64,000 nucleotides of DNA from Ulva prolifera (Eukaryota > Chlorophyta > Ulvophyceae > Ulvales > Ulvaceae): assembly GCA_023078555.1 (NCBI GenBank), contig CM041204.1:1836485-1900484 (forward strand), written 5' to 3'. Shown here one piece after another: positions 4,551 through 64,000 of the stretch; position 1 is the stretch's first letter, and the number at the start of each line of letters is the position of its first letter. The notes under the pieces are model-generated. The model was not told the DNA's origin and ran no database searches. It was given only the letters and a program-made list of their open reading frames with translations. The position numbers and the translations under genes are program-made.

Positions 4551-7500
4551 TCACGGGCACAGGCTGTCGAGATCGGGGCTCGCGTCGAAGACTAGCCGAA
4601 CACCGAGAGACGCTGCAAGGGCTGGCACGCCGGCCCAAGCATCTGGCGGCGGCCCCGCGCCCCCGTCTGCCATTGGCAGGTATCCCGCACCTCCTTCCCC
4701 ATCACGCTCCGCTGCATCCTCCCCACACAGCGTGAGCTCACATGCATGAGCGGCATTCATGCGCGCCAAAGCGCGAACGAGCGTCTCTGCGGCGATCCGG
4801 CTCGGGTCCGCGTCCGCACTCACCAGAAGCGCCAGCCTGACCCGCCGCAGCTCCGGCCACGGCTCGGCCGCCGCCGCGACGGCGTCGGCAAACTCGCCGC
4901 CAAGGCCCCCGTTGGTCAGGAACAGCCCCGTCAGCGCGCGCAGCGCGCACAGCGCGCGCCCGAGATCTGCGTGCAGCTTCCTCGGCACCGTGAACTCATG
5001 CAGTGCGAGGTGCTGCAGCCGCGTCAGCGTCGCGAGGCCGGCAATGTCCGGGGCGGCGGGAAGGCAGCTGTCGTACCCGGTGAGGCGGAGGCATGTGAGG
5101 GCCGACAGGCTGCTTAGCAGGCTGCCGGTGCCAGGGACGTGATCACAAGGCAGGCCTACCATCCAGAGCCGCAGCTCGCGCAGCCCCGGCACCCGGAGGT
5201 GGGTGAGCAGCGTGCTCCACTCAGCGTGCGACGGGACGCAGCCGTGCGGTGCGCAGCGGAAGCTGACGCGCAGCCGGTGGAGAGACGCCGCGGCGGAGAA
5301 GGCCGCCGGGAGGAGGCGGAAGAGCGCCCGCGCCCCGGCGGTGATGTGCAGGTCGCGAAGCTGAGTCAGCGGCGCGAGGCCGCGTTCCGCATGTGCGACC
5401 AGCCACTCCCACCACTCTGCTGTTGCCGGCACTCGGACGCACATCGGGACGTCAAAGTGTAGCTGCTGTAGGAGTGTGAACTTTGGGAGGCTGAGGAAGA
5501 GGTGGCAGGGGTCCGGGTCTGAGGTGCGGGACGTCAGGTACTCGGGGCGGAGGTGGGAGAGGACGAGCGTGGTGAGAGGGGCGGAGAGGTGGTGGAGGAG
5601 GGGGCCCGCGAGCGGCAGCCACGCGCCGGTCAGGGTGAGGACGCAGAGGTGCGGCAAAGGTAGGGGCGCGGTGACGGTGAGGACAGCGGTGCTGGGGCGG
5701 GCGGCAGGTGCGCCGCCGCCGCTCATGGACACCTCGCGCGACCCCTCAAGCTCCGCATGCATGTGCGCATGCATGTGGATTTCGAGGGCGGTGAGGCTGC
5801 CTGCGGCCGCGAGTGTGGCCGAGAGGCAAGTCACAGCGTGCTGCGGGCTGGGTTGCGGTGGCGCTGTGTGGGGGTGAGGCAGGGTGGGGCCTGGAGTCGA
5901 AGTCACAGGGGTGATGCCCTGGGTGGCTGCGGCGGCGCTGGCAGCGGCGAGGTTCAGGGTCAGGCTCCGGAGCTGGGGCGTGTATGCACTGCTGAGGGCA
6001 GTCCGCCAGAAGGGCAGAGTTGGCGCGGGCCAGGGGTGGTCACAGGAGCCGAGGGTGAGGCTGCGGAGGAGCGGCAGGGTGGCCACGGCCGCAGGGAGGA
6101 GGTGTGATTGCATGGACGGCGCATGCCAGGCGCCGCCTCGGTTTTGGTGCTGCTCATGTTCAGCCGAGGTGAGGGCATCAGAGGTGACAGCCAGCGACAG
6201 CTGCTCAAGGCCCGTGTGGTGGCGCAGGGCAGCGCTCAGAAGTACCTCCACGTCCGCACCTTCATGATCAGCCTCACCTGCAGCGCTTGGCGGCTGCGCT
6301 TGCAGGGAGCTAGCGAACGGGGCGCTGGACGCTTCTACATAATGCCGTCCGCGTTCATATGCATGCGTCGCCGCGGCTTGGCGTGCTGGAACTCGCGATG
6401 ACGTCATGGTGACTCGCAGCGAGAGCAGCGAGGGTGGAGTCGCCGGCAGCGATATGAGCGCTCGAAGGTACGGTTTGGCGGCGGGGCACAGGCTTGCTGC
6501 GAGCGATTTGTCCGCCGACACGGTCGTCGCAACGACAGCCGTGTGCATATCCGATGGGACGAGGTTCAGCAGGAGATGCACGCCACATTCGAGGCTCGCA
6601 GCGGCGGAGAACGTGTGAGAACGCAGGCGTGGCGGCAGCTTGTACAGCCCTTCGGCAACAGCAGAGGCGAGATCACTGGAGACGGGACTGCGAGACGCGC
6701 CCAGGTGGACCAGGTGGTGCGACAACAGCGTCAGCCACGAGGAAGCTTGCATGTCGTCCAACGCGTCTGCGACCTGCAGACATCACAGGCCTTTCATGAA
6801 AAGCGATGCAACGGCTCTTGCAACGGCTTTTGCAAGTGTTGTCAACTTTTCGAACAAGTTTTTAAGACGCGGCTGCATTGCCAAAGTCATGGTACATCTG
6901 GCCTGCAGGCCGGTGGCTGCTGTGCTCCACTCTCAAAGCTGCATGACAAAAACCCTGTCTGCCAGTGGCTGGAGAGGCTGGAGAGGGTCGCCCATTCCCA
7001 TTCTCTGTGGCGCAGACAAACCTGGGACACATCATTCATTATGATAGCGCAGCTGGGCCTAGGCCATTGTCAAAGACAACGGCAGCTAGCACAACCAGCA
7101 AGCAGTGCAAGAGCTCACAACCTCCAACCCTGCCTGTTGATCGATGCCCACGGATCTAAAACATAATCTTTTGACGTCGTGTACTGTATCTGTACTTCTG
7201 TGAAGCATGCTTCTATGCTGTGATATCTCGACGAGATCCGTGATGCTAGTACTGTGTATGTTTGTTTGTTTGCTTCTTTACGATCAATCGGTCACCCTAC
7301 TGTCTCCGCACCGAAGGGTGATCGTCAGTGGTGCCAGATCTGGCACCACTGACAAAGTACATGTCTGTAGTAACAAAGGCTCACTCGTTGGTTTTTGAAC
7401 CGGCAGAGATGATTTTGCTGTGTTTGTCAATTACAGCTCACTCTTCATCAAACCACACGTGTCTGCAGTACCAAAGTCGTGTTGCTGGTTGTGTGGGTGA

Positions 7501-8531
7501 TTGGACAGCCTGATTGTGGCCTGCGGTGCTACCTGCCTCCCTGGCTGTATCCTTATAACACATGTCATGCGCGGCCGTGTGATTGTGTGTATGTTGCTGT
7601 TGTTTGGGATGATCATCATGAGATTCTTGTATGGTATTTGCCTTCTCCCGTTCACTCCTTCACACTCTTTTGTAGTGATGTCTGCACCAGCAGTAACAAC
7701 GTCTCACTTGTTTCGGATAAGATTCGGTTTCTGTGTTTGTTTTCTCCCGGTCACTCTTCTGTAAAACAATGTCTCACTCATGGTGAGGGTGCACGTGCGC
7801 ACACATCTGCCCACACTCGCGCAATCTTTACTACGCCAACACTCGCCCCTTCCTCAGCCCTTCTGTGGTGCACGGCTGTGGCGTGGAAAACACGAAACGC
7901 TCGCGAAACGCATGTGCACAATTGTGTTGCAGCCGTGGCCTCGTGCAGTCGTGTTCACCGAAACTTGGCCTGTTCCATTCTATGTGTCGAGCCGTGGGTT
8001 GAGCGTGGTCTGGATCATGTTCAATGCAACGATTTATCTGTCCGAAGTACTCCTTCCAACGCTTTCGTGCACGCGTGCGTCGTCGCGTTTCTCGTTGTAC
8101 ATGTGCAAGATTGTGCGCAAGAGCTCGCTCGAGCCTTGCGATCCGGGCAGCAAGCTGCAATATGAGAGAGGCACCTTGACAACTTCACAGATCGTGCGTA
8201 TGTCCATTGCTTGCACCTTGGCTCCATACGCAGCCACACTCACGTCTCCAGCACGTCTCCAGTTGTTGAACTCAGCCAGGGAGACGCTACCCGGCAGCTG
8301 TGTGTCACCGCCAGACTCCATAATGCATTGCAGCACACTTGAACGGGCTATGATGGATCTATCGACTTTATCGTAGAGCATCAGCTGGCCGGAGTACTCC
8401 GTGGCAGGTGCGCTGCGGGTGAGGCACACGGGGCCATCTACGTCTGCATCTGCTGCAGCCGCAGATCCAGAGCCCTGCTGGAAGCTAGCATAATCTGGAG
8501 TGGCTGGTGCAGCGCTTCCGAAATCAGACAT
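4551..8531 (-). CDS. SKP1-like/LRR protein, copy B (two exons, 859 aa)
   Basis: Exon 1 is 8531-8175 (119 codons; ATG at 8531) and exon 2 is 6773-4551 (740 aa plus stop); the junction is phase 0 (GTCAAG|gtgcct ... tctgcag|GTCGCAGAC). The protein starts with about 33 low-complexity residues, then a SKP1/POZ-like domain (PVCLTRSAP, about residues 34-150) and helices beginning VADALDDMQASSW, which correspond to the SKP1 segment around LAANYLDIKGLLD. From about residue 270 to the end it is LRR-like, with strands such as LPLLRSLTLGSC, LTCLRLTGYDS and LTRLQHLALHEF. It lacks the EEFPF tail of the right-hand copies and ends ASPDLDSLCP. No stop or frameshift is seen. Expected role, by inference: a cytosolic or nuclear ligase adaptor or sensor that binds targets through the LRRs. 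Its intron is about ten times longer than in the paralogs and contains dispersed repeats. Antisense open frames across exon 2 are GC-driven shadows. Confidence 0.8.
7324..7353. repeat. Perfect 30-bp palindrome in the intron of copy B
   Basis: GTCAGTGGTGCCAGA is followed directly by its exact reverse complement. It lies within the 6774-8174 intron. Confidence 0.9.
7641..7766 (-). repeat. Two copies of the CTCCCG-TTCACTC-TTTTGT dispersed repeat
   Basis: Positions 7641-7673 and 7709-7766 match, in inverse orientation, the repeat that clusters at 10989-13900. The second copy includes the whole run from the GGATAAGATTCGGTTT segment to TCACTCTTCTGTAA. Both lie in the intron of copy B and partly account for its size. 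Confidence 0.8.
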
Positions 8532-30650: not shown

Positions 30651-33600
30651 CTAGAGGTCGTCGAGGGAGAGGAGGTCGTGGGAGAGGAAGGCGTGGAGCT
30701 GCAGGAAGGGGTTGTCGATGAGGCCGCCGTTGCTGCTGCTCTGCGCCATCGCCATCAGCGACTGCAGCGCGCCGTCAAAGTCGTCCTTGCGGTGCGCGGC
30801 AAGGCGGGCGAGGATGAACTTCGCGACGACGAGCCGTAAGCGCGCGTCGTCGTCTTGCAGCACCTGCAGCCACACACGCAATTCAATTCCGGGTTTCAGA
30901 GTTATCAATGTCCCAATGGATATGGAATTGTAAACAAGCAATACGTACACACAGACACACCCCCGATGAGCCTATAATAGTGCGGCCCACCGACTCTATG
31001 GCGCTACCTGTCTACTCGCCTGGGTCAGTACAAGGTGCACGCCGACGCGTGTGTTTGAGTGGGTGAGTGCATGTGAATGCGCATGCCCACACGCCGAACC
31101 AGCGCCAAACACTCGTGCCGGTGGGGTTGCGTCCGCTATCCATTTGTTATACTTGAAGCAGCAGACGCGACGGCCAGATGGTGGAGCACTGGACTCGGAT
31201 CACACGGTGCTGAAAGAGCAGGGGACCGAGGATGATGGGCACTCACTGATGCCCAGTGGCGTGTGCATGGCTGTGAAGGCTTCTGTGCTGGGTGCAGCAG
31301 CGCTGCAGTTTTTGTGGGGCTCTCCTGGGCCGCATGTGCATGGCACGTGCATCCAGTTGCGTGAGCATCACAGAAAATGTGTACAGTGACATAGCAACAG
31401 CAGAAACAGATCACGTGCCCGCTCTTTCCAACACCCGCATGGCGTGCCGGGACGAGCGTGGCGACAGTGGCACACCTTCTGTAGCTCTCGGCAGCCACCC
31501 GCCTCCTCCAGCGCCGCAGAATCAAGCTGGAATTTCCACAGCAGCAGGATGTACACCGCGACGCGCGCGTCCCGCGCCGACGCATACCCGAAGGCTAGCC
31601 CCTTTGCGGCCTCTGCCTCCCTGTCCTCCCACTCGCGGCCCCCGCCGCGGTCCCGCGCCGAGCCGGCGGCTGCCGCGCCGTCGCTGCCGGAGGCCTGCGC
31701 GGCGGCTGCGGCCGTCGCGCCGGTGCCGGAGACGGTGTGCCAGCCGCGGAAGCCAGGGTCCGCGCGGGCAGAGCCGGCCGGGCTCCGCGTTGCGGGCCGG
31801 CTCGGAGGTGTGAGGCCGTCCCGCAGCGCCAGCAGGAGGTCCACAGGCATCGCCGTCACCGCAAGCGAAGGAACGGACGTGCGCCCTGCACCAGCACAAC
31901 ACACACAATCACGAGCTATTGTGTTGCGTTTCCCCTGCACAAATAGCAAACCGGCGCCGCTGCTTCCTGGCTCCCAGATCTCGCACACGCGATACATGCA
32001 TGGAGTCCATGCATATAGATCCACATGGTACTTTCGCACATGACACACCTTTGAGGAACAGTGATATTGAAGATAGCAAGCTGGTGTCCCGGGGTGCGTC
32101 CCGCCTCGGCGTCGTTGCGGCAACGGGGTTCCCCCGGCCCAGTGTCACAGACACCCCCCGCACCGGCAGCAGCCCATCGACCACCTCCTCCGCCACCGGC
32201 ACCGCAAACAGATCCAGCAGCATCTGGACGACCCCGATCATTGCGGGGAGCATGGCGGCCGGGTCCGGCACGCGCTTCAGCCACGTGACGGCCGACGTGA
32301 CGGTCGCGGCCGCGACAAACACGTGTGACGCCGTCGTCGGCGCCGTGTCAGGGTTTCCCGGGTGCAGGTCAGCCTTGCGGCAGAGCAGCGTCGTCATGAG
32401 GACGCGGAGCGTGTGCATGAGGAGCCGCACGCCGCGGCGCGCGGAGGCCGGGGTGTGGAGCTGTGCGGCGAGGGTGTCCAGGAGGGGCGCAAGAGGGGAC
32501 AGCGCGACCTGCGGCGCGGCCCCTGGCATCGGCGGAGGGGGCGACAGGAGGGAGATGGTGTAGATGTCGGCCGGCCGGCGGGAGGCGAAGGCCGGGAGGT
32601 ATGACACAACGGAGCCTGCGACGAAGGCGGAGCGCCCGCGCCAGAACAGGGACGCCAGTGTCCGTGCGCAACAACGCTGCGTCGCCGCGTCAGATGCGCT
32701 GGCTATGTTGCCCAGCGTTTCTGCGGCCTCGGATCGGGAGAACTGCAGGCATGTGTGGGTGTGAGTTTGGGAACACGGCGCCACAGTCCATGCAGCCGGT
32801 CTGGAGGGCAGACTCGGGGCGACCGGGTCTGCATAGCTGACAATGCTGAGGCCGGGGCGGTTCGGGTCGGGATGGTTCACAGCCATGATCGTGCAGGACC
32901 TGACTGCATTCATTGCAGAATCGTGATGACCTGGTAGAATGCGCGTTTCATGGAACGGCAAGGAATCTGAGGTACTCTGCTCAGCGTTGCCAACTTTGCA
33001 CCTTGTGCTCAGAACAACGCGCAGATGTATTGTGAGAGGGCGTGTGGCAGGTTGCCTGAGATTTGACCTCACCTCGTCGGTCCCGAGGCAGGTGTCGACC
33101 ATGTGGGCGGCAGACGCCGCAGACGCCACGCCGCCGTCCGCGTCCGCGGCGGCCGGGGCGAGCGCGGACAGCACGCTGCGCAGCGACGCGGCGGCCGCGA
33201 CGGACGGCGCGTGACCCCCCCGGCCCGCCTCCATGAAATGCTGCTCAACTGCCGTCGCCACGGCGGCCGGCGCGGCTGTGGCTGAGGTGATGCTGTCGGT
33301 GCTCGTCGCCGCCAACGCCACGGCCTCGATCGCTGCGGTGCTTGAAAGCAGCGCCCGGAGCCTGCACCGCCGGCTGCATTGAGAAACAAAATGCTCCGGG
33401 CATGAACAAGCTGTGTGCATGACCTCAGGCCTTGGCAACACAGAACACTCAAGCCCTTGCACAGTGCATCTCCGCCCGGCGCTATGAAGTGTGCATAAGC
33501 ATGCCCCCTACTTTCTCTCGCTGTCAATGGTGTTGTCGACCTAAACATACCTCTGCATACAGAAATGGTGGCAGGAATGCCTGTCAGAGGTACACACACG

Positions 33601-36600
33601 TGCCACCTATACGATGATGAAATAGTGTGAGGCATGCTGATATGTTGTGGAAGTGCACTGATACGACCGTGATACCACCTGACGTGTCCACAGGGGGATG
33701 CACAGGTCACATACCTGGGCGCCTCGCTCCCACTCAAGTATTGGTCCAGCGATGCGTCCAGGCGACACGCACGCACGCATGCCACCTCCAGCAGCACCGA
33801 CAGCGCCGCGTTCTGCGCGCTCACCGTCGGCCGCACATGCATGCAGTGCAGCAGCTGGGGCACCCCGCCAAAGCCGGCGAGCTGCGCGTGGTTGAGCTGC
33901 TGCGGCCGCTGCGGTGGCACCGCTGCCGAGTCCCCGTCGGCCGCCGGGTCCGGGTCATTCCCGGTGTGCATGTAGCAGAGCTGGCACGCCATGCATGTGA
34001 GCACGCCCTGGAGCTCGAGAGACCTGCGCACGGCGCTCGGTGTTGGTATGGTACGGGCCTTGTGGCGCTGTGCCATGGCTACAGGGGCGACACGCGATTG
34101 CAGCGACTGCACGCAGCACTGACCCGGCTGCCACACACAGTTTCTCGTGCCTGCGCAGCCCCCCGCCAGACCAGGGCGCGCTGCTCAGCGCGACCCCCAT
34201 CACATTGCACGGCCATTTCACATCCGCATGCCCTGAGTGTCTGGGGGATCCATCGTGCATGCATGTGTGCACACGTGCGCACGCACCATGCGTTGTCCTC
34301 CGCAATGCTCAGGAGGACCGCGAGGGGCTCCGTGGAGAGGCCGGCCATGCGTGTGAGGTCCGGGGTGCCCCCTGCAGCCACGAGGTGGAGGAGGCAGCCG
34401 AGGGCGGCCTGCCAGAGCTCCTCGCTGCGGTCTCCGCTACGCACCGCCTCCAGCAGCTGCTCAAACAGTAGACACCTCAGCCACTGCAGGAAAACCGCGA
34501 CGCGCGTCGCTGGTGCGCCCTGCATGCATGGGGTCCTCGTCAATCCGCACGCCATCGGCAACCTTGCTGGCGCGCAACGCACCGTGTGCTGAGGGTGGAT
34601 GGAGGGTGCGTATGGGAGTGGGGGTGTACGACGGTGCTGGAGGGTGAGGCACCTCTGGCCACACCCCGCCTAAACGGCCGCCGCGGAGTTCGCTGTTGCT
34701 GCCCTTGCGGCTGGCGACACCGCTCATGTGTCCCCAGGGGTAGACAGCGTTGATGCTATGGTGTGCAACTGTGCGGTCTGGGACTGACCTCTGGAAGGCA
34801 TGCACGAGACAGGCGGCTACGGCCCACGCGGGGGTGGGGTGAATGCATGCTCATGCATGGGACAATGGCACAACCCAGGGGACGAATGACAAACCAACCA
34901 CAAACCGCCCACACAAACACTGCGCTCGACAAGCTCAGCGCTGGTCTGTGCGCAGATGGAGCTGGCGTCACACGCATTGCCGTGATATGGGTTGAACACA
35001 TGCACATGCATGGGTCAATGGCACAATACAGGCGGCGAATGATCAGCCTGTGCTCGTCAAGCTCGGCCTTGAGCTGTGCCAAGATGGAGCTGGCTTCACA
35101 TGCATTGCCCTGATGTGGGTTGAACACAGTGCGCATGCATGGGTCAATGGCACAATACAGGCGGCGAATGATCAGCCTGTGCTCGTCAAGCTCGGCCTTG
35201 AGCTGTGCTAAGATGGAGCTGGCTCAACATGCATTGCCCTGATGTGGGTTGAACACAGTGCGCATGTAGAAAGGCTAGCAGTGATTGGGGATCAGCTTCT
35301 GGATTCGGACGTCACGCAGCGCAGATACGAGCCCAGCCATCAAGAGCCCGGGCGCGCATGACATGCATGACCTGCATGCATGTCATGCATGTGTGGAATC
35401 GATCTATGAGATGCTGCGTTGCTCGAGCATGCCTCCCTCGGCCCCGCCACAGCCCACCTCCCCGGCCCGTCGCACATGTTCATGCATGTGGTGCAGGCGG
35501 CACCCCGAGGAGCGCCGCCACAGCCACTGCGCTGCCTGTGCCGGCATGCACCCCGCATACACGAGACGCGCACGGCAGCAGGGGACGCTGCATGCAGGCA
35601 GGCCCAGCCGGGGCAACAGGCACATTCTGTCTGCTAGATCCCACCGCACGCCAGCACAGCACACAGCACGTGCAGCACGGGTGGCGGTGACGCCGCCTGG
35701 CGTAGCAATTTTGTCCGGGCTCTGGAGGTCAGGCTGGACCGCACTGTCAGACCTTTTACTTTCACCATCACATCCCCAATCAGGCACTGCTCGTCATGTT
35801 GACAGACGACCGAATCCACGGTAATCAAGTGGTTGATGCATGCAAGACCGGGCAGGCTCGCAGAATGCTCCACAACACCGGCCATGCCCAGAGGTATACA
35901 GCAGCTTGCACACCAGGCTGCAGCGCCTTCAAACCCGACACTCATGCACACAATCAGCCATGGCAGCGCCAGGAGAACTCAGACACAGACACACAATGCA
36001 TACTGCAACCCGCACTGCCACAGTAGAAGGCCCTCCGCACCTCTGGCCCGCCGTGCTCGCCAGCGCTGTCCCGCATGATCTCCGGCTGCAGCCGGGGCAA
36101 CCGCGCCGGCGCGAGCACCGCTGCGGCAACCCCGCCGCTGTCGCCGCCGCCGCCACTGTCGCCGCCAGCGCCCCCCTGGTCACTCACATCCACCGGCTCG
36201 ATCATCTGCGCGTGGAGGGAGAGCGTGTAGAGGAGGTCAAACACGCGGACGCGGTACGTGCGCTCTGTCTGCCGCATCGCGGCCGTGAGCATTGGGCGCG
36301 TGAGCTCGAGCGTCTCGCTGGGGTCCCCTTGTAGCCACATGTCCATGATCACCTTGACCAGGATGCTCGCCATCTTCCCCACCTGCACCGGACGCACGTG
36401 CGTGCTGAGCTGTACAGATGTACGTCTGTGTGCTTCGACTGCACAGACAACAGATTCGAATGTGTGAATTGAGCCACAACGAATCGGATCGTATTCTTGG
36501 GATCGCTCAACAAGGCACACTGCCTCTGACTGACATGATGCCAGTATGCCCAGGTTGTACACATTGGCCATGCGGTGCCAGGTTCGGGAACACGAGCAGA

Positions 36601-43196: not shown

Positions 43197-46100
43197 GGGG
43201 GAGCCAATTCGCTGCCGCAGGCTGTGTGCTACCCACGGGTGGGGGTTTGATATGATTAATTTCAGCGGTGTGCGCAGCTGCAGGCTCGTGTTGTAGCTGC
43301 TGGACGCTGTGATCCGCCGTGGGCATCACAGAATCATCATCAGAGGCGGTCGCAGCAGCAGCAGCAGCAGGCACTCCAGGCATCAGCCTCAGCAACTCGT
43401 TCAGGAGTGTAAGCGGCTACGGACACAGCAGCAGCATCGCCCACAGCAGCGGGACACAGCAGCAGCAGCGCCCGCACCTTGCCGGACACGCACTCGATCT
43501 CCCCCCGCCCGTGCGTCCACAGCCCCGCGATCACGCGCAGCAGGCTCGACTTCCCGCACCCTGACGGCCCCATCAGCAGGACCGTCATGCCCCGCGTCAC
43601 CGTCAGCGCCAGCTCGTCCGCCACCAGGTACCCCTGCTCCCAGGCCCCCCCCGCCACCCCTGGCACCCCCAGCTCCGCCAGCCCCCGCCGCACCATGCTC
43701 GGCGCGCGCACGTGCAGCCGCGAGATCCGCAGCAGCACCCCCTCTGCCCCGCCCGCGTCCAGCCCGCGCCGCATCACCTCCCCGGGTCCGCGCCGCGTGC
43801 CGGCACCACCGCCGCCGACGACGCTCCACCCCGGAACATCCTCCGGCGCCGACTCAGAGAGCAGCGGCTTCGCGTCGGCCGCCTCGGTAGCATCGCGCCG
43901 CCGCGGCGTGTCCTCGGTCTTGTCCTTGACGGCTGCCCCGGTGGAGGAGGGGGGCGGCATGAGGAGGAGGGTGGAGAGGAGGGAGCGGCTGTGGGCGGGC
44001 GACGGGGGGGCCGCGAGGTCGAGGGCAAGGAAGAGGTCGTAGAGGCGGTCGGTTCCGGTGGCCAGCGCGGAGAAGCTCTCCATGCTCGTGACGACGAACG
44101 AGAGGGCGTTCTCGATGCGCGCAAAGGAATACCCCGCCTGCAGACAGCGCCCGCCGTTCTCTCCCAGCTTGTCGCGATCTCCGCGGCCGGGCTGCAGCTG
44201 CACTGCCAAAGCATGCACGAGCGGGGTGCGCATGCATGGAGCTGTCGGGCTTGCACGGGTGCAGTGGCCTGGGGAATTTGGTTGCAAAAATAGATGACGC
44301 AATTTTAGGATTGCGAATGATCTTCCAACACCGTCCACTACACGTGGCCGTGGAACCGGACACGCATGGCCGCAAACAAGAGGCGGACAGGCTAACGCGC
44401 AGAACTGGTCCCAAAAACCAGATGATATACAAACCCTGGTGTCACCGACGGGCATGGCGGGTGCGGGCGCACCTGCGTGACGACCCCGAACTGCACCAGG
44501 CCCGCAAAGTACTGCGGCGCGGTGATCAGCGACGGCACGAGCAGCGTGGAGTAGGTGTACAGGTTGCGCCAGACGGCGAGCAGCGCGGTCCAGGTGATCG
44601 CGACGCGCCGCGTGCGCACGACGTCCCCGAACGCCGCCCCGGAGTGCGCGGCCTCGGCGGCGTGGCCTCTGAAGAACGCGATCGCCTCGCAGTGCTCGCG
44701 CACGCGCACCAGCGCGAACCGCAGGTCGGCCTCCTGCTGCAGCAGCGTGTACTGCAGGCTCATCAGCCTGCACACCGGCGGCCGCTCGCATGCATGCCGC
44801 TCGATGGTGTTGCACCCGGGGGCCGCCATCAGCGGCCAGAAGGTGGTGAAGGCCGTGGAGGTGTCTGTGACGCGAGCATTGGTAAACACAGCGATCTCGT
44901 ACGGATCGCTTGATGTCATGCATGGCTGTCCGCACACGTGTCAGCAGCTGGCTGCAAGAACTGCATGCGTGTCATGCACACTTGCACAGCCCCCCCCGCC
45001 GATGCGATATCATGACTGCCTGCGTGGGGAGGGGTGTGTTGCACATCGCAGCCGGGCTCAACCGCGCACGGCCACCCCCGGCCACAGTGTCCACCGCTGG
45101 TGGCTCAGAGCAGCTCTGACCCTACTGGAAGGACAGGCGTACACATCCCATCAACGACCACAGAGACCTGCCGCCAGCACAAGGGGTTGGGGGGGGCGCA
45201 CTTGCGGCCAAAGAGGCTGGTGGTGATCCAGGTGCCGAGGCCGGTGTACAGGAGCAGCAGCAGCACGAGCCGCGGGGAGATGCTCCACAGCACGCCTGCG
45301 CACAGCCGCCCCGTCAGCACAAGCGGAGCTGTCAATGTCCACTCGAGCACATGGCCAAGTATACCCAGATACACTATGCTGTAACAAGTGTAAGCCCTGC
45401 CGTGCCTGGTGCCAGCTGTGCTGCATGCCCCTGGCATACAAGGACAAAGCGAGCGAGGCCGGTAGCACCGTGGGCGACGACCAGGGGAACCTCACACATG
45501 TGGCAGTCCGTGTGGCAGCCCGTGTGGCAGTCTACCACTGAACGTGACGTCTCGGCCCCAGCGCGTGCGGCCGGTGCGTTGACACGCTTGGCCCAGAGCA
45601 TGCGCCTAGTTGATGAACACTGCCTGCGCAAAAAGCGCGGCCGATGCTTCTACAATGAAGATACATGATCTTCGATATCAGATGCAGCACCCGGGCGGGC
45701 TGATTGGTTGCAAGCTGCACTAGCGTCACCGGAAGACGGCCCGTCAAAACAGGCAGACGGCCCGAACGCTGTTGCAAGACACTGGGAGCGCAGGACAGCA
45801 CGCAGAACCAGTCCGTGCATGAACGCGCACGCCGCGCCACACCGCCGGCCCCTGGATGGCGGGCGCGAGAGCCAGACAGCGGCACACCGACGAACGCGGC
45901 GCAGTTGGACGCCTTCTGGACGACGCCGAAGCCGAGCATGGTCGAGGTGGCGACGAACGTAGCGACGTCCTGTGAGATGCGCTGGTCGGGGTTGTCGACG
46001 CCGGCGGTGTGCACGACGCGGAAGAAGGCGGGGCCGCGGAAGAAGGCGGCGAGGAGGGCGTCGGTGAGGGCGGCGCGCCACGCGAGCACGAGCCGCGCCT

Positions 46101-47234
46101 CGACAAAGTCCTGCAGCGCGAAGAGGGGCACCGCGGTCGCGATGATGAGCAGGTAGTGCAGCATCGCGGAGTAGAACTCGTCTGCACGCGGCAACTTTTG
46201 GTCTACTTTCCCGATCGCATCCCTAACATGCAGCCAGGCGGCCCAACCCTGGTACAAAGGACAGATGCAGTACAAGCTGTCGCATGTGGCTGTACTGCGG
46301 ATTGACTGGTGACAGAGGAGACGGTGCTCGTATCGATCAGGTCCAAGATACCAGTGCGATGGCGCCATGAAGCCCATGAAGCCCTGTTTTTGGAAGCACG
46401 GTGGATGTGCAGCTGTGTCTATTGCTTGGCAGAGGCGGCCATGGTAAGGTGGGTGTCACGATGAAACAAGCAGTGAAAGCATCAGGATGAGTCAGTGGCA
46501 TGCCTACATTCTTCTCTGACAGAGCCGTGGAGAAGTTCCGTTGAGCGTACGAGATCTGCAGCACTGCGAGCACTGTGATACGGTCAAGCTGTTGGTTTGC
46601 AAAAGGCTGGGTGCGTGTGCGCTGCTGACGAGCACAAATTCTGGTGTAACACTGTCTCGAAGAAGCCGTCAGTCAAATGGAGAATTCCATACGGATTGGT
46701 GCATAATCTGCGACACGAGTTCGGCTGCCAGGGCGAATGCATGTGGGATGCCTGAATGCCGTCAGGAGACACACAGTGGATGCCACGTTGAGGCTTGTCG
46801 CTGGCAAAATTCAAGGGAGGGCCGATGAGATTCCCGCCACTTCAGCAGGGACGTCAATGACAGAACTGATCATGGAGACAGTGCCTCGCTGAGGGATGTA
46901 AGGAGCATCACACCTGAACTAGCAGTGCAGTACTTGCCAAGGACAGCACGAAGTTTGCCAAAAGATACAGACGAGCCCGGACTTTGTCTTCGCCTACAAC
47001 GTTAGCGAAATCAGATCCAATAGTTTTGCGATGATGTTTGTGCTGGAACGGAAGATCTGTGTGCTTGGCTTCACAGCTGTGCTGGATACTCCGGCCATAC
47101 AACCTACCGAATACACGATGCATCCATCAGCCTCGCCGCAGATTTGTACAGAATTCCGTACCTACGTACCAATGCTTCACAACGACCCACCATTTTGGCA
47201 TGGTCTGCCAGAAATCAGCATGCGCTTCGGACAT
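42155..47234 (-). CDS. ABC half-transporter, SbmA/ABCD-like (678 aa, nine exons)
   Basis: Exons are 47234-47162, 46993-46914, 46555-46508, 46194-45888, 45295-45202, 44767-44473, 44137-43478, 43066-42919 and 42486-42155; every junction keeps phase. The acceptor at 46195 is ambiguous by a few codons. The membrane half matches the ABC_membrane_2 family (bacterial SbmA/YddA, plant chloroplast and peroxisome ABCD): FWQTMPKWWVVVKHWYVG, NFSTALSEKN, VDNPDQRISQDV, LFGRKLMSLQYTLLQQEAD and VRVREHCEAIAFFRG. The ATPase half has Walker A GPSGCGKSS, Q-loop FFLPQKPYMPIGSLRQQ, signature LSVGEQQRVAFLRLL, Walker B ALAFLDEASSAMD and H-loop VGHR. It probably works as a homodimer in an organelle or inner membrane; substrate unknown (peptides, acyl-CoAs and cobalamin are precedents). 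An insert of about 70 residues, low complexity, separates the halves. No clear transit peptide. It is divergent from the MATE gene. Confidence 0.88.
43165..43195. repeat. Poly(dG) tract, 31 nt
   Basis: Uninterrupted G on the plus strand inside the 43477-43067 intron of the ABC gene, so the pre-mRNA carries a C run there. Confidence 0.95.
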
Positions 47235-53329: not shown

Positions 53330-55634
53330 ATGGTTATCTTCGACGCTCCAGTGTGCCTGACACGCTCCGCCCCTCTTGACTCTTACTCCGGGCACTTACT
53401 CTTCTACGACGTTATTGAGCCAAGCTCTGTCTCTAGGTCCGGAGTGTTGTCATGCATTGCCGAAGCGGGCGGTGAAGTGGTGCTGCCGGACGCGATCAGG
53501 CTGCCAGAGTTCAGAGCATGGGTGGCTGCGACTAATGCCGACCGAGCAGCGGTTGATGTAATGGCGTTTACGTCAATTTGCACCGTTCTCAAGGTACGGC
53601 ATGCTTCCACATGATGGCTACAAACGCCGATTTAGGCCTTGAATCGTGTTGGGCGGTCTTGGTGGTGCCGTGATGCGAAGCTACAGAGCTGAAACATCAC
53701 CATCTAGTAATGGTAAAACCTGTTCAGGTGGCAGATGCTCTAGATGACGCAGGATTGGACGATTGGATCAACACTGCTGCCGGTCGTCTTACCCAATACG
53801 CACATTGCCACGAGGAGACCGACGACTTGACTCCGCACCAGATCGCTGACAGCTTGACCACACTGTCCAGCTCGCTGCAGATCCGTCTCTTCGTGAGCGT
53901 GACTCGTGATGCACGCAAGCTGCACAGCTTGCTAGACTTCCTGCCCAGCCACATCCACCATGCACTGGTTGCAGCTTCCATCACGCCCGCCAAGGTGCTC
54001 GAGATACCTCTGCACGACAACTCTCTCCCGTTCGTCAAGGCCGTATCCGCAAACTCTCCTCCACCTCCCTCCATTCTGTCCCTGAGCGTTCGCATACCAA
54101 AAGACTCCCCAATGCAAGGCGAGGCCTGGCAGGAAGCAGCAGGCCACCTCTCTCAAGCACTGCAGCACCACTCAGGCATCACCAGCCTCCGCCTCAACGT
54201 GAAGCACATGGATGCTGCTTCAGCACAGCGACTCGCCCCAGCAATATCCACTCTCACGTCCCTGCAGTCCCTCTACCTGCACACAGGCATCAACACTGCC
54301 ACTTCCACCGCCCTGCAGCAGACGCTGCAAGCTCTGCCCCAGCTCGAAGACCTCTCGCTCTCCCTGATTCTTGCCACAGATTCACAGAAGTGCCAGCGTG
54401 ATGTGAGCACTGCCGGCACAGCCCCGTGCTGCCTGGCAGCCCTTCTGTCCCCAGCCACAAAGCTGACCTCCCTTTGGGTGTTCGCACAAGCAGACGGAGG
54501 CAAAGAATGCTACACAGCCACAAACTCCCTAACGTTACCATTTCTGATGCAGCTGAGCTTGAAGTTTGAGCAGCTCAGTATTCCCGATGATTCCCGATGC
54601 ACACATAACTCTCACACAATCGCATCCAGCTGTCTCTTGAGTCACCTGGCCTCACCTCCCTGGACCTTCGTGATGGCTTCAAGTACGCCGCCCTGCGAGC
54701 GGAAGATACTCCACATGCCCAGCGCTTCTTCAGCAGCCTCGCAAACTTCGAGCAACTGCGGCACCTCAGCATCACCGCCCCGCAAGATTACCACATGAGG
54801 TGTGCAGCCATCACGCATGCGGTCACCGCGGCCGCGCCGCCCGTGCTGGCTGCCCTGCCCCACCTCCAGTACCTCAGCTTCAACGCCGAACTCCCATCTG
54901 TGCTCGCAAGCCTGCCGATGCTGGCGGGCGCGACCGGACTGTCCCACCTGCGCCTGAAGTGCCGGCACAGGCACAACCACCCGCAAGCCGCGCTGACAGT
55001 GTCGCCCGATGACTGGGAGGAACTCTTCAGCGGGCTGTCCCGGCTCAGCCTCGCGAGCCTGGAGGTCGACGGGTGTTTCGCCATGCTGCCGGGCATCACC
55101 CGCCTGAGCATGCGAGACCTCGCCCGGCTGTCGGCGCTGCGAGCCACCCACTGGGAGTGCCTCCGCACCCGCGCCGACATCGACGCCCTCTCCAGCATGA
55201 CCCACCTCCGCAAGCTGCACCTGATCGGCAGCGCGGTGCCGGAGGGCATGCATGCGCGGTGCGTGCACGGCGTTGCCGCGCTGTCCGCGCTCACCGATCT
55301 CGCGCTCCAGGTGGTCGACAGCTCAGACACGATCGTTTCCTCGCTCATCAAGTACGCGCCGGCGGGAGCGTGGCCGCAGCTGCGCCAGCTCAGCCTGGAT
55401 GTGTGGCCGCCGAGTGCTGCCCCGGCCGCGGTATTCGGCTTCGCGAGCGGCCTGCCGGCACTGACGCGGCTTGTGCTGGACCTCCCAGACGCCTTGCCCA
55501 CGACCACGAGTGACGCTGATGATGACCCAGACGAGGAGGCCTTGGCGGAGGAGGCGGCCTTCTCCCGAGATGTTGCAGAATTGGCGGCGCAAGCCGACTT
55601 TGCTGTTGAATACCTTGAAGAATTCCCTTTCTGA
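53330..55634 (+). pseudogene. SKP1-like/LRR family copy C, one frameshift
   Basis: Exon 1 is 53330-53593 (88 codons, MVIFDAPVCLTRSAPLD...) and exon 2 starts at 53728; the intron is 134 bp with AAG|gtacgg and gttcag|GTGGCAGAT. The SKP1-like part (VLSCIAEAGGEVVLPDAIRL, VADALDDAGLDDWINTAA, LTPHQIADSL) and first LRRs are intact. Near 54645, where copy D reads LSHLAAPLTSLDL, copy C lacks about 7 bp, so the frame changes and meets a stop at 54798. The following frame continues the family alignment to the EFPF end at 55634 (LARLSALRATHWECL, QADFAVEYLEEFPF). A single break suggests a young pseudogene, a truncated product of about 445 aa, or a sequence error. Confidence 0.8.
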
Positions 55635-56198: not shown

Positions 56199-56253
56199 GC
56201 AGTGCCCCTCGGTGCGCTCGTGGCGGCCTGCCAGCGCTCACCCAACTGCTGCA

Positions 56254-56424
56254 GTTATCCGCTTCGCGCGCGGCCTGCCAGCGCTCACCCAACTCACGCT
56301 CGAGCTCCCAGACGTTGAGCTTGCTCAAGACACGGACCATGCGTTCGAATCCATCGAAGAGATCGAAGCCTTGGCGGCAGAGGCTGACTTTGCCGTAGTT
56401 TACGCTGAAGAGTTCCCCTTCTGA
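56254..56424 (+). pseudogene. C-terminal relic of a SKP1-like/LRR gene
   Basis: 57 codons open to a TGA: IRFARGLPALTQLTLELPDV ... AEADFAVVYAEEFPF. This equals the last LRR and tail of copies C and D. Upstream sequence is the unrelated duplicated block. A GCGGCCTGCCAGCGCTCACC stretch is repeated just before and within it (about 56223 and 56270), as if a slippage or junction event occurred here. Confidence 0.8.
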
Positions 56425-59076: not shown

Positions 59077-61342
59077 ATGGCAGTCTTCGACGCTCCCGTG
59101 TGCCTCACACGCTCCGCCCCTCTTGACGCTTACTCTGGGCAATTAATCTTCTATGATGTCATTGAGTCAAGTACAATTGCTGCATCCGGCGTTTTGTCAT
59201 GCGTTGCCGAAGCTGGCGGTGCAGTTGTCCTGCCCGACGCGATCAGGCTGCCAGAGTTCCGAACATGGGTGGCTGCCACAAACGCCAACAGAGCAGCAAC
59301 TGATGTGATGTCGTTTACATCGGTCTGTACCGTGCTCAAGGTACGGCATGTGTTCAATGGCTGGCTACACACGTTGACGCGTTGTTCCGGGAGCTTGTTC
59401 GATGGCCTGGCCTTGCAGTAATTGCGGAGTTCTTAGCTTAATTAAACATGTTCAACTTATGCTAAGGGCTGTGCAGGTGGCAGATGCTCTAGATGACGCA
59501 GGCCTGGACCGATGGATCAACATTGCTGCGGATCGCCTGACCCGATGTGTACATTTCGACCAGGAGACTGACTTGACTCCGCGCGAGATCGCAGAAAGCT
59601 TGTGCATGTTGTCGGATTCGCTTCAGAACCGCCTTCTCACGAGTGTGGCTCCCGATGCTCGCAAGATGCACAGCTTGCTTGGCTTCTTGCCGAGCCACAT
59701 GAACGATGCCCTCATTGCAGCCAGCATCACACCCGCCAAGGTGCTAACAGTACCGTTGCACGACAACTCGCTCCCATTTGTTAAGGCCTTGTCGGCCACA
59801 TCTCTTCTGGCTCCTCATATACTGTCACTCAGCTTTCAAAGCCCCAAAGACTCGCCGATGCAAGGCCAGCTCTGGCAAGAAGCAGCAGCAGATCACCTCT
59901 CTCAAGCACTGCAGCACCACTCAGGCATCACAAGCCTCCGCCTAGACACGCAGTACAATGACGCTGCTTCAGCGAGGATGCTCGCCCCAGCGATTGCCAC
60001 GCTCACGTCCCTGCAGACCCTCTACCTGCACGCAGGCATCGATGCTGCCACTTCCTCCACACTGCAGCAGACGCTGAAAGCCCTTCCCCAGCTTGAAGAC
60101 CTCTCCCTGTCCCTCATACTTGCTACGGGGTCGCTGAGGCGGCAGCGTGATGGCAGCATCACTGGCACGGAGCAGTGCTGCCTGGCAGCACTGTTGTCCC
60201 CAGCCACCCAGCTGACGTCCCTTCGGATCTGTGCCCTTGCAGATAGAGGTACCGAGTGCTACACAGCGGCACGACCTCTGGTCTTGCCGAGCCTCAGGCA
60301 TCTGAGCATGACGTTTGAGAAGCCTAAGCTCACTCCACGTTTTACAAACTCCTACACCATCGCAGCCAGCAGCCTCCTCAGTCACCTGGCTGCCCCCCTC
60401 ACCTCCCTGGACCTGCAGCATGGTCTCCATGCATCGTACGCCCCCGCGGAAGCCGAAGACGCGCCGCATGCGCAGCGTCTCATCAGCAGCCTTGCAAAGT
60501 TCCCGCAGCTGCGGCGCCTCAGCGTGACCGCCCCAGACGATGACGAAATCAGATCTGTAGCGGTGATGCATGCGGTCACCGCGGCCGCGCCGCCCGCGCT
60601 CGCCGCCCTGCACCACCTCGAGCACCTCAACCTCACCGCCGACCTCCCCGCCGTCCTCGCGAGCCTGCCGCTGCTGGCGACCAGCCTGTCCCACCTGCGC
60701 CTCACGTGCAGGCCCAGGCACGACTTTTTCGGAGCCATACTGTCTCATGACACCTGGCAGCAACTTCTCACCGCATTGTGCAAGTTCAACCTGGCAAGCC
60801 TCCAGCTTGACGCAGACGGACTTTATAGTGAGCTGCCCGGGCTCGCCCGCCTGCGCGAGCTGACGCGGCTGTCCGCGCTGCGCGTCAGCGGCTGGGAGTG
60901 CCTCAGCTCCGGGGAGGACATCGCCGCCCTCGCCAGCATGACCCACCTCCGCAAGCTCCACCTCATCAGCGCCACGGTGCCAGCGGAGATGCACGAGCGG
61001 AGCGTGCGTGCTGTCGCCGCGCTGTCCGCCCTCACCAACTTTGTCTACCGAGCGGAAGACGGCTCGGACGATTTCCTGAAGGCGCTCATCACCTGTGCGC
61101 CGGCGGGGCTGTGGCCACAGCTGCGGCAGCTCGGCCTGGACCTGTGGCCGCAGAGCACCACACCTCTGGAAGCCTTCCGCTTCGCGCGCGGCCTGCCGGC
61201 GCTGACGCACCTCACGCTGGACGTCCCATTTGACGCAGAAGGGGAAGAGTTCATCATATATGGCACAATCGGTGACGACGTCGAAGCCTTAGCCGCGCAG
61301 GCCGACTTTGCCGTGGCGGCGGTGGAAGAGTTTCCTTTCTGA
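59077..61342 (+). CDS. SKP1-like/LRR protein, copy D (two exons, 709 aa)
   Basis: Exon 1 is 59077-59340 (88 codons) and exon 2 is 59477-61342; the 136-bp intron has CTCAAG|gtacgg and gtgcag|GTGGCAGAT. This is the cleanest full-length member. Residues 1-88 (MAVFDAPVCLTRSAPLDAYS, VLSCVAEAGGAVVLPDAIRL) align with the SKP1 POZ core and its (V/P)xLPNV strand. VADALDDAGLDRWINIAADR and LTPREIAESL align with the SKP1 helices LAANYLDIKGLLD and GKTPEEIR. A linker to about residue 220 follows, then LRRs to about 690 (ITSLRLD, LTSLQTLYLHAG, LRRLSVTAP, LTRLSALRVSGWECL, LRKLHLISA), ending in the acidic tail QADFAVAAVEEFPF. No F-box, transmembrane or NB-ARC motif is seen. A role as a cullin-ligase adaptor with built-in substrate binding is inference. 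The start lies in an AGAGCAGAATGG context shared with copy E. Confidence 0.85.
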
Positions 61343-62976: not shown

Positions 62977-64000
62977 ATGGCAGTCGTCGACGCTCCCGTG
63001 TGCCTCACACGGGCCGCACCTCATGGTGCTTACGCAGGGCAACTTCTATTCTACGATGTGATTGATGAAAGCACTGTGTCTAGGTCCGGTGTGTTGTCAT
63101 GCATCGCCGAAGCGGGCGGTGAAGTCGTGTTGCCCGACGCCATCAGGCTGCCAGAGTTCAGAACATGGGTGGCTGCCACAAACGCCGACAAAGCAGCGCT
63201 TGATTTAATGTCGTTCACATCAATTTGCACCGTTCTCAAGGTATGGCATGCTCCCACGGGGTGGCTAAGCACGCTGACTCGCTGTATCGATATCGCCAGG
63301 GCTGAAAGCTTCAATCCTGCAATTGTGCTGATGCAGAATCACAGATCTGAACAAAACGCTCTCCGGTGATGTTAACCCTTTGCAGGTCGCAGATGCTCTA
63401 GATGACGCAGGCCTGGACGACTGGATCAACATTGCAGCAGATCGCTTGACGAAACGTGCAGATGGCCAAGGGGAGTCCCACTTGACTCCGCGCCAGTCCG
63501 CTGACAGCTTGTTGACGCTGTCAAATTCGCTTCAGCACCGCCTGCTTGCGCATGTGGCTCGCAGTACATGGACGTTGCAGAGATTGCTTAGCTTCCTGCC
63601 AAGCCACATCCACCATGCACTCGTTGCAGCCACCATCACTGCCGCAAAGGAGCTCAATGTACCTCTGCACCAACATGCAGTCCGGATCATCAAGGCCCTT
63701 CCAGGCATTCCTCCCCACCCTCCTTCCGTCCTGTCCCTCCGCGTGCACATCCCTGAACACGATGGACCACTGCCAGGCCACCTCTGGCAAGCAGCAGCCC
63801 CTCACCTCGCTCAGGCACTGCAGCACCACTCAAGCATCACCAGCCTGCACCTCGACACGGACTACCACGATGCTGCTTCAGCACTGCTGCTCGCCCCAGC
63901 CATCGCTACGCTTACGTCCCTGCAGTCCCTGCACCTCCATTCAGTCATGAACTCTGCCACTTTCACAGCACTGCAGCAGACGCTACAGGCCCTGCCCGCG
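62977..64000 (+). CDS. SKP1-like/LRR protein, copy E (runs off the right edge)
   Basis: Exon 1 is 62977-63240 (MAVVDAPVCLTRAAPHGAYA...) and exon 2 starts at 63386; the 145-bp intron has CTCAAG|gtatgg and tttgcag|GTCGCAGAT. The exon 2 frame stays open to the window edge: VADALDDAGLDDWINIAADR, LTPRQSADSL, FLPSHIHHALVAATITAAK, then the first LRRs (ITSLHLD, LTSLQSLHLHS). I prefer the ATG at 62977 because its context and position match copy D; 62920 is the alternative. Whether the rest is intact cannot be seen. Confidence 0.8.

Follow-up and report, generated by a model that had tools for sequence, protein, structure and literature searches.

Genes and features of the window

The window, namely the whole 64,000-nucleotide stretch of Ulva prolifera DNA analyzed here (contig C9, positions 1836485-1900484, in an assembly of 88.9 Mb and 44 contigs), carries near its right end a two-exon gene on the plus strand, called copy D, which encodes a product of 709 amino acids as judged from the sequence and tblastn (Table 1). 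When this product was used as a tblastn query, five members of one family were located with a best E-value per copy of 2.6e-6 to 0: copies A (1107-1481) and B (4827-8438, a match spanning two exons) toward the left end of the window, both in minus orientation, and copies C (53330-55634), D (59077-61342), and E (62977-63997) on the plus strand at the right end. A sequence-only reading of this DNA had already counted five members, distributed over the two ends of the window, as we find them; the N-terminal stretches quoted there are also present, at 59077-59340 and from 59477, with an intron between them that had gone unmentioned.

Table 1. Positions of the family members and other features (window coordinates unless contig C9 is indicated)
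Feature	Positions	Strand	Remarks
Copy A, exon 1	1624-1887	minus	most diverged member within the window
Copy A, start of exon 2	1100-1475 (tblastn match 1107-1481)	minus	frame open for 158 aa only
Copy B, exon 1	8175-8531	minus	46% identity to copy D where the two match; extended N-terminus
Copy B, exon 2 with LRRs	4551-6773	minus	29% identical to copy D
517-aa frame	31909-33462	minus	no Pfam match at E 0.01
Tandem repeat	34920-35266		129-bp unit, 2.7 copies, 91% matches
ABC half-transporter	43340-46377	minus	matches to ABC_membrane_2 and ABC_tran
Copy C, exon 1	53330-53593	plus	tblastn with the copy D product
Copy C, exon 2	53728-55634	plus	frame change near 54651-54657
Relic of a C-terminal end	56227-56424	plus	54% identity to copy D residues 646-709
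Copy D, exon 1	59077-59340	plus	residues 1-88; bulk of the conserved N-terminal (candidate POZ-like) domain; conserved among 54 aligned copies
Copy D, intron	59341-59476	plus	136 nt, GT-AG, phase 0
Copy D, exon 2 including stop	59477-61342	plus	residues 89-709
Copy D, helical linker	59549-59809	plus	approximately residues 113-199; mostly helix in the predicted model; boundaries approximate
Copy D, leucine-rich repeats	59810-61342	plus	approximately residues 200-709; boundary approximate
Copy E, exon 1	62977-63240	plus	tblastn with the copy D product
Copy E, exon 2	63386-64000	plus	continues past the window end
Gene cluster	C9 2.43-2.60 Mb	minus	23 copies, every one on the minus strand
Gene cluster	C9 2.98-3.11 Mb	plus (18 copies)	19 copies

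The C-terminal part of the chain is an array of leucine-rich repeats (LRRs), as had been proposed. The family consensus exceeded the Pfam cut-offs of LRR_14 (PF23598; 46.4 bits against 40) and R13L1/DRL21 (PF25019; 33.9 against 27), with copy D alone slightly below the cut-off (26 against 27 bits). Pfam found no nucleotide-binding domain in copy D or in the consensus. No F-box model was matched in the Pfam scans of copy D, 16 members, five window frames, and the consensus, in agreement with the earlier impression that no F-box is apparent. Between the N-terminal domain and the repeats, the linker of copy D contains two similar tandem helix motifs, L-P-x-x-L-Q-x-R-V-L and L-P-x-x-L-H-x-A-V; this segment was recognized by no Pfam scan, is fairly confidently helical in the predicted model, and includes a Pro residue (P160) that is invariant in all 54 sequences. 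By a crude hydropathy test, furthermore, a signal-peptide-like start was found in none of 28 full-length products and a marginal hydrophobic 19-mer in only two, both of which favor a soluble recognition protein.

Size of the family, gene models, and selection

A genome search with the first 193 residues of copy D gave 161 matches, and clustering of the 150 that were listed resulted in at least 97 gene places, 87 of them on contig C9; exon 1 was matched by 95 of the 150 rows. The family total is a lower bound, because copy A is absent among the listed matches and was found only when its own sequence was used as the query. Four clusters hold 62 of the 87 places on C9, and two of them, each with its copies predominantly or entirely on one strand, are included in Table 1. 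Within the 23-copy cluster (C9:2427232-2604997), four pairs of near-identical members (L037/L038, L051/L052, L054/L060, and L057/L066) lie about 69-98 kb apart and have dS values of only 0.01-0.05 over residues 1-130, which points to segmental duplication inside this cluster. These results support a large family growing by tandem and segmental duplication, as had been suspected from the window.

Gene models were made for 30 loci from the genome search and for 40 further loci, with a single copy kept where the first 60 residues were identical. In 58 of the 60 spliced models, an intron in phase 0 was found exactly at the expected point; three further exon-1 matches could not be spliced and stand outside the 60 models. 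Among the 37 copies modeled from the 40 further loci, 27 reached at least 690 residues and 10 stopped before that length. An N-terminal match was present within 4.5 kb upstream of 82 of 86 LRR matches, and the N-terminal and LRR parts therefore travel together; the four others were checked by eye against all 150 listed rows. These four, at C9:2562021, 3046985, 2993395, and 2999702, have no detectable N-terminal match upstream and are truncated or diverged members. The pentamer TGTAA, which we take to be the green-algal polyadenylation signal, was found within 500 nt of the stop codon in nine of 27 copies as against none of 27 in the coding background, a weak signal.

Median dN/dS values were 0.29 for residues 1-130 (57 pairs), 0.47 for residues 131-200 (55 pairs), and 0.50 from residue 201 on (58 pairs); they come from those of the 60 closest pairs (out of 213) that passed a dS filter and are descriptive, as the pairs share sequences. 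Single pairs went as high as 1.15 for the linker; for the LRR part the maximum was 0.95, in a pair of which one copy is out of frame there. The family is hence under purifying selection throughout, and the selection is stronger in the N-terminus than in the LRRs. Together with the common phase-0 intron, median dN/dS below 1 indicates that these are true genes and not chance frames. The stronger constraint on the N-terminus matches what would be expected if it met one common partner while the repeats recognized many targets. We also looked for a hypervariable surface on the LRR strands, but the mean entropy at the strand x positions was 2.33 bits compared with 2.24 bits elsewhere in the LRR part (28 proteins); the strand-surface positions thus vary barely more than the others, and a hypervariable face of the immune type is not clearly indicated.

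Comparison of the N-terminal domain with POZ, BTB, and SKP1

In the alignment of 54 family sequences, L40, L52, P53, F61, W64, C84, and D95 are invariant among the positions printed. When 16 members, 13 cores, and the consensus were searched with Pfam, no match to BTB (PF00651), Skp1 (PF01466), Skp1_POZ (PF03931), or BACK was obtained, and searches of the PDB by sequence and by profile gave no POZ, SKP1, or F-box match to the N-terminus. With members or profiles as queries, Pfam, NCBIfam, PHROGs, and the PDB returned scattered matches only, either to single members or below threshold. No relatives were found in collections of viral contigs, genome contigs, phages, and plasmids, which says little because few eukaryotes are included there and most of the scans detect close relatives only. 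A Chou-Fasman prediction averaged over the alignment was uninformative.

The one positive indication came from profile comparison. By hhalign, the 112-residue core (54 sequences) aligned with a mixed POZ profile of 13 sequences at a score of 18.97 over 58 columns and a probability of 3%; this score was reached by none of 240 column shuffles, the best of which gave 17.62. With a BTB-only profile the score was 17.57, and six of 240 shuffles were at or above it. In earlier runs with 150 residues, the corresponding counts were 1/60 (small profile) and 0/80 for mixed POZ profiles and 6/60 (small profile) and 2/100 for BTB, and a separate run with smaller POZ profiles gave a score of 14.8 and a probability of 0.8%. 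Since the probabilities were 2-3% or less, compared with 59% (score 31.5) for SKP1 against BTB as a positive control of the same method, we regard the POZ match as a hint only. The shuffle counts, furthermore, flatter this match, because more than one profile was tested and shuffling of columns also destroys the local helix periodicity; several of the profile sequences were entered by hand. In the printed alignments, the family stretch S-R-S-x-V-L...L-P-D coincides with the BTB segment that begins in helix A2 and ends in strand B3, and the aligned region covers helix A2, strand B3, and the approach to helix A3, namely in the POZ order. Also, W64 and C84, between the third helix and the next, are some 20 residues apart, a BTB-like spacing that lacks the longer insertion seen for SKP1 in one of these alignments. 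These comparisons weakly support a general relationship to POZ/BTB.

Structure prediction was performed by AlphaFold with alignments made only of rows derived from the window (9 and 5 rows). In model 1 (copy D with the intron read through, 250 residues), the blocks of exon 1 had pLDDT 27-46 and those of the exon 2 part, which is almost all helix, 65-87 apart from the last block at 44; model 2, made for copy C exon 1, had a mean pLDDT of 38. In exon 1 of both models, pLDDT was below 50 for all but one residue each and no strand was predicted, with low-confidence helices at residues 31-36, 38-45, and 58-70 (model 1) or 31-35, 38-45, and 58-73 (model 2). The order of these helices would be that of A1, A2, and A3 of POZ, at low confidence and with the strands absent. 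When model 1 was searched against the PDB by Foldseek with E-values allowed up to 10, none of the 209 matches was at or below 0.001; among the best 50 of the 209, the top rows were mostly helical repeats, bundles, and designed proteins, and no POZ protein was included by title and length.

In the sequence-only reading, the N-terminus had been taken for a SKP1-like domain fused to LRRs, which would dock on CUL1 and bypass the F-box. By eye, the order of an LP strand, a helix, and an A-D-A-L-D-D helix does resemble SKP1, L52 and P53 are among the invariant residues, and the genome has one SKP1 gene and a cullin set. A six-frame search with Pfam models, the counts of which are lower bounds, gave at least three cullin places, at least one SKP1, at least four BTB places, and at least 11 F-box stretches; with the Skp1 and Skp1_POZ models, a single ordinary SKP1 place was found, with LAANYLNIKSLLD and TPQQI. 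In model 1, the N-terminal core is followed by helices, which might or might not correspond to the two F-box-binding C-terminal helices of SKP1. The hallmarks of SKP1 are nonetheless not conserved in the family. The resemblance to the TPEEI helix holds for copy D, but T is found in 10 and P in 20 of the 54 sequences; that to the LPNV-like strand again holds for copy D, but PxPN, a motif of SKP1 strand B3 involved in the interaction with CUL1 (PMC1257465), reads x-L-P-D/E in the family with N in only one of 54 sequences. Opposite AANYLD of SKP1, the family mostly has V-A-D-A-L/V-D. When the profile comparison that had been suggested for this domain was made, the SKP1-only profile, a thin one of five sequences, scored 12.5 in hhalign, which is at the level of shuffles (77/240; 19/60 in the earlier 150-residue run). 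With no SKP1 match in Pfam or the PDB and with the SKP1 insertion lacking between W64 and C84, a SKP1-type adaptor docking on CUL1 appears very unlikely. The conserved N-terminal domain and the large, expanding LRR family with no detected F-box are supported, and the SKP1-like nature of the N-terminus is not.

Possible functions and relation to known systems

Starting from the observed gene structure, family size, selection, repeats, and lack of an F-box match, we tentatively prefer, at a little less than an even chance, a lineage-specific family that expands in tandem and encodes soluble LRR proteins for recognition inside the cell, with a highly diverged N-terminus of the POZ/BTB type, possibly linked to a cullin. 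The LRR part (about 500 residues) would bind partners that differ between members, and the constrained N-terminus would meet one common partner. The N-terminal domain, of about 112 residues and laid across the conserved phase-0 intron, would most likely be an interaction domain of the POZ/BTB type that has diverged strongly and whose spacing is nearer to BTB than to SKP1; the helical linker behind it would take the place of the BACK-like helices of BTB proteins. Such a domain could mediate pairing among the proteins themselves or binding to a cullin, CUL3 in the first place, self-pairing and CUL3 binding being the established routes of POZ domains according to PMC1257465 and PMC8125325; the bound partners might thereby be ubiquitinated.

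An equally probable rival, likewise at a little less than an even chance, is that the N-terminus represents a new non-POZ domain private to this lineage and that the proteins act as LRR-type sensors or scaffolds unconnected with ubiquitin. The lack of any meaningful match in Pfam, NCBIfam, PHROGs, and the PDB, the lack of relatives in the viral, genome-contig, phage, and plasmid collections (poor in eukaryotes), the AlphaFold models with no confident fold, and the Foldseek result with no POZ match among the best 50 of 209 are all consistent with a private domain, whereas the mixed POZ profile, which aligned in the expected register and outscored all 240 shuffles, argues against it. The linker could instead conceal an F-box in either of its two helix motifs, in which case the family would consist of F-box/LRR proteins of the usual kind, binding the single SKP1. 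In favor of this, hhalign of a five-sequence F-box profile aligned residues 131-143 of copy D at a score of 13.8, and the repeats of copy B matched the LRR model of F-box proteins PF24758 below the cut-off (18.3 bits against 27); however, that score was reached by three of 80 shuffles and covers 13 of about 45 columns, the Pfam F-box scans described above were negative, and the best 50 of 209 Foldseek rows contain no recognizable F-box chain, two of these rows being from SCF-containing entries via chains of 379 and 848 residues. A concealed F-box is accordingly very unlikely. Copies C and A, furthermore, look broken, and these together with the 10 short models would fit a decaying, repeat-driven expansion with little function; the full length of the other 27 modeled copies and median dN/dS well below 1 in all three regions, the single-pair values given above notwithstanding, make this highly improbable.

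A stronger form of the preferred POZ/BTB-type reading can also be considered, in which the N-terminus is a POZ domain beyond profile detection and about 100 single-chain POZ-LRR receptors feed a cullin directly, as a ubiquitin-based recognition repertoire that replaces large F-box/LRR or NB-LRR families; we think this rather unlikely. As part of it, and with the same reserve, the family might be a eukaryotic counterpart of the BTB-LRR arsenal of Protochlamydia. The PEX1 family there is described as 73 proteins with an N-terminal BTB domain in all but three and C-terminal LRRs (PMC4209131), and 43 BTB-LRR proteins are given for UWE25 (PMC1257465). PEX1 resembles the present family in combining an N-terminal interaction domain and C-terminal LRRs in one chain and in a single lineage-specific expansion to tens of genes, and also in birth-and-death evolution, but PEX1 is bacterial with a recognized BTB, whereas the family here is eukaryotic and intron-bearing and its N-terminus was recognized as BTB by no tool used. 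BTB-LRR proteins in one chain, and their expansion to large numbers, are hence already on record from bacteria; provided that the POZ assignment is right, the novelty here would lie in a version that is eukaryotic, carries an intron, and has gone unrecognized.

A single chain serving as adaptor and receptor is also already known as the way in which BTB-CUL3 ligases work (PMC8125325). Like the receptors of those ligases (KLHL/BBK and MATH-BTB), the present proteins would have a would-be adaptor and a substrate receptor in one chain with a helical segment between them, but the receptor module is kelch or MATH there and LRR here, and the POZ fold is only putative here. F-box/LRR proteins (FBXL and the TIR1/COI1 type) share an LRR receptor behind a short N-terminal part that binds an adaptor, a putative role in the present family, and differ in their F-box, which was undetected here; SKP1 is alike in the order of motifs by eye and differs in its hallmarks. 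The NB-LRR genes described from chlorophytes (PMC7145615) are likewise algal LRR genes with a proposed role in recognition, but differ in the nucleotide-binding domain, which was not found in copy D or the consensus. Among the matches listed in the open-access literature, no paper dealt with this family by its title or the start of its abstract.

If the N-terminus docks on a cullin, single-chain LRR ubiquitin receptors, with about 97 places, would far outnumber the F-box stretches (11) and the BTB places (4), all of these being lower bounds, and annotation by family models would miss such receptors as such. Even with no link to ubiquitin, an LRR family of about 100 copies with a constrained N-terminus, faster-changing repeats, and clustering on one contig would be a good system for the study of recognition repertoires in phototrophs.

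As for other features, a search for rbcL across the assembly gave no match despite 38 stretches of chlorophyll a/b-binding protein, one of which was compared with the PDB and matched chlorophyll a/b-binding proteins; the plastid genome is thus probably outside the assembly. The middle of the window holds the 517-aa frame, the tandem repeat, and the ABC half-transporter of Table 1, the last of which is presumably of the peroxisomal type.
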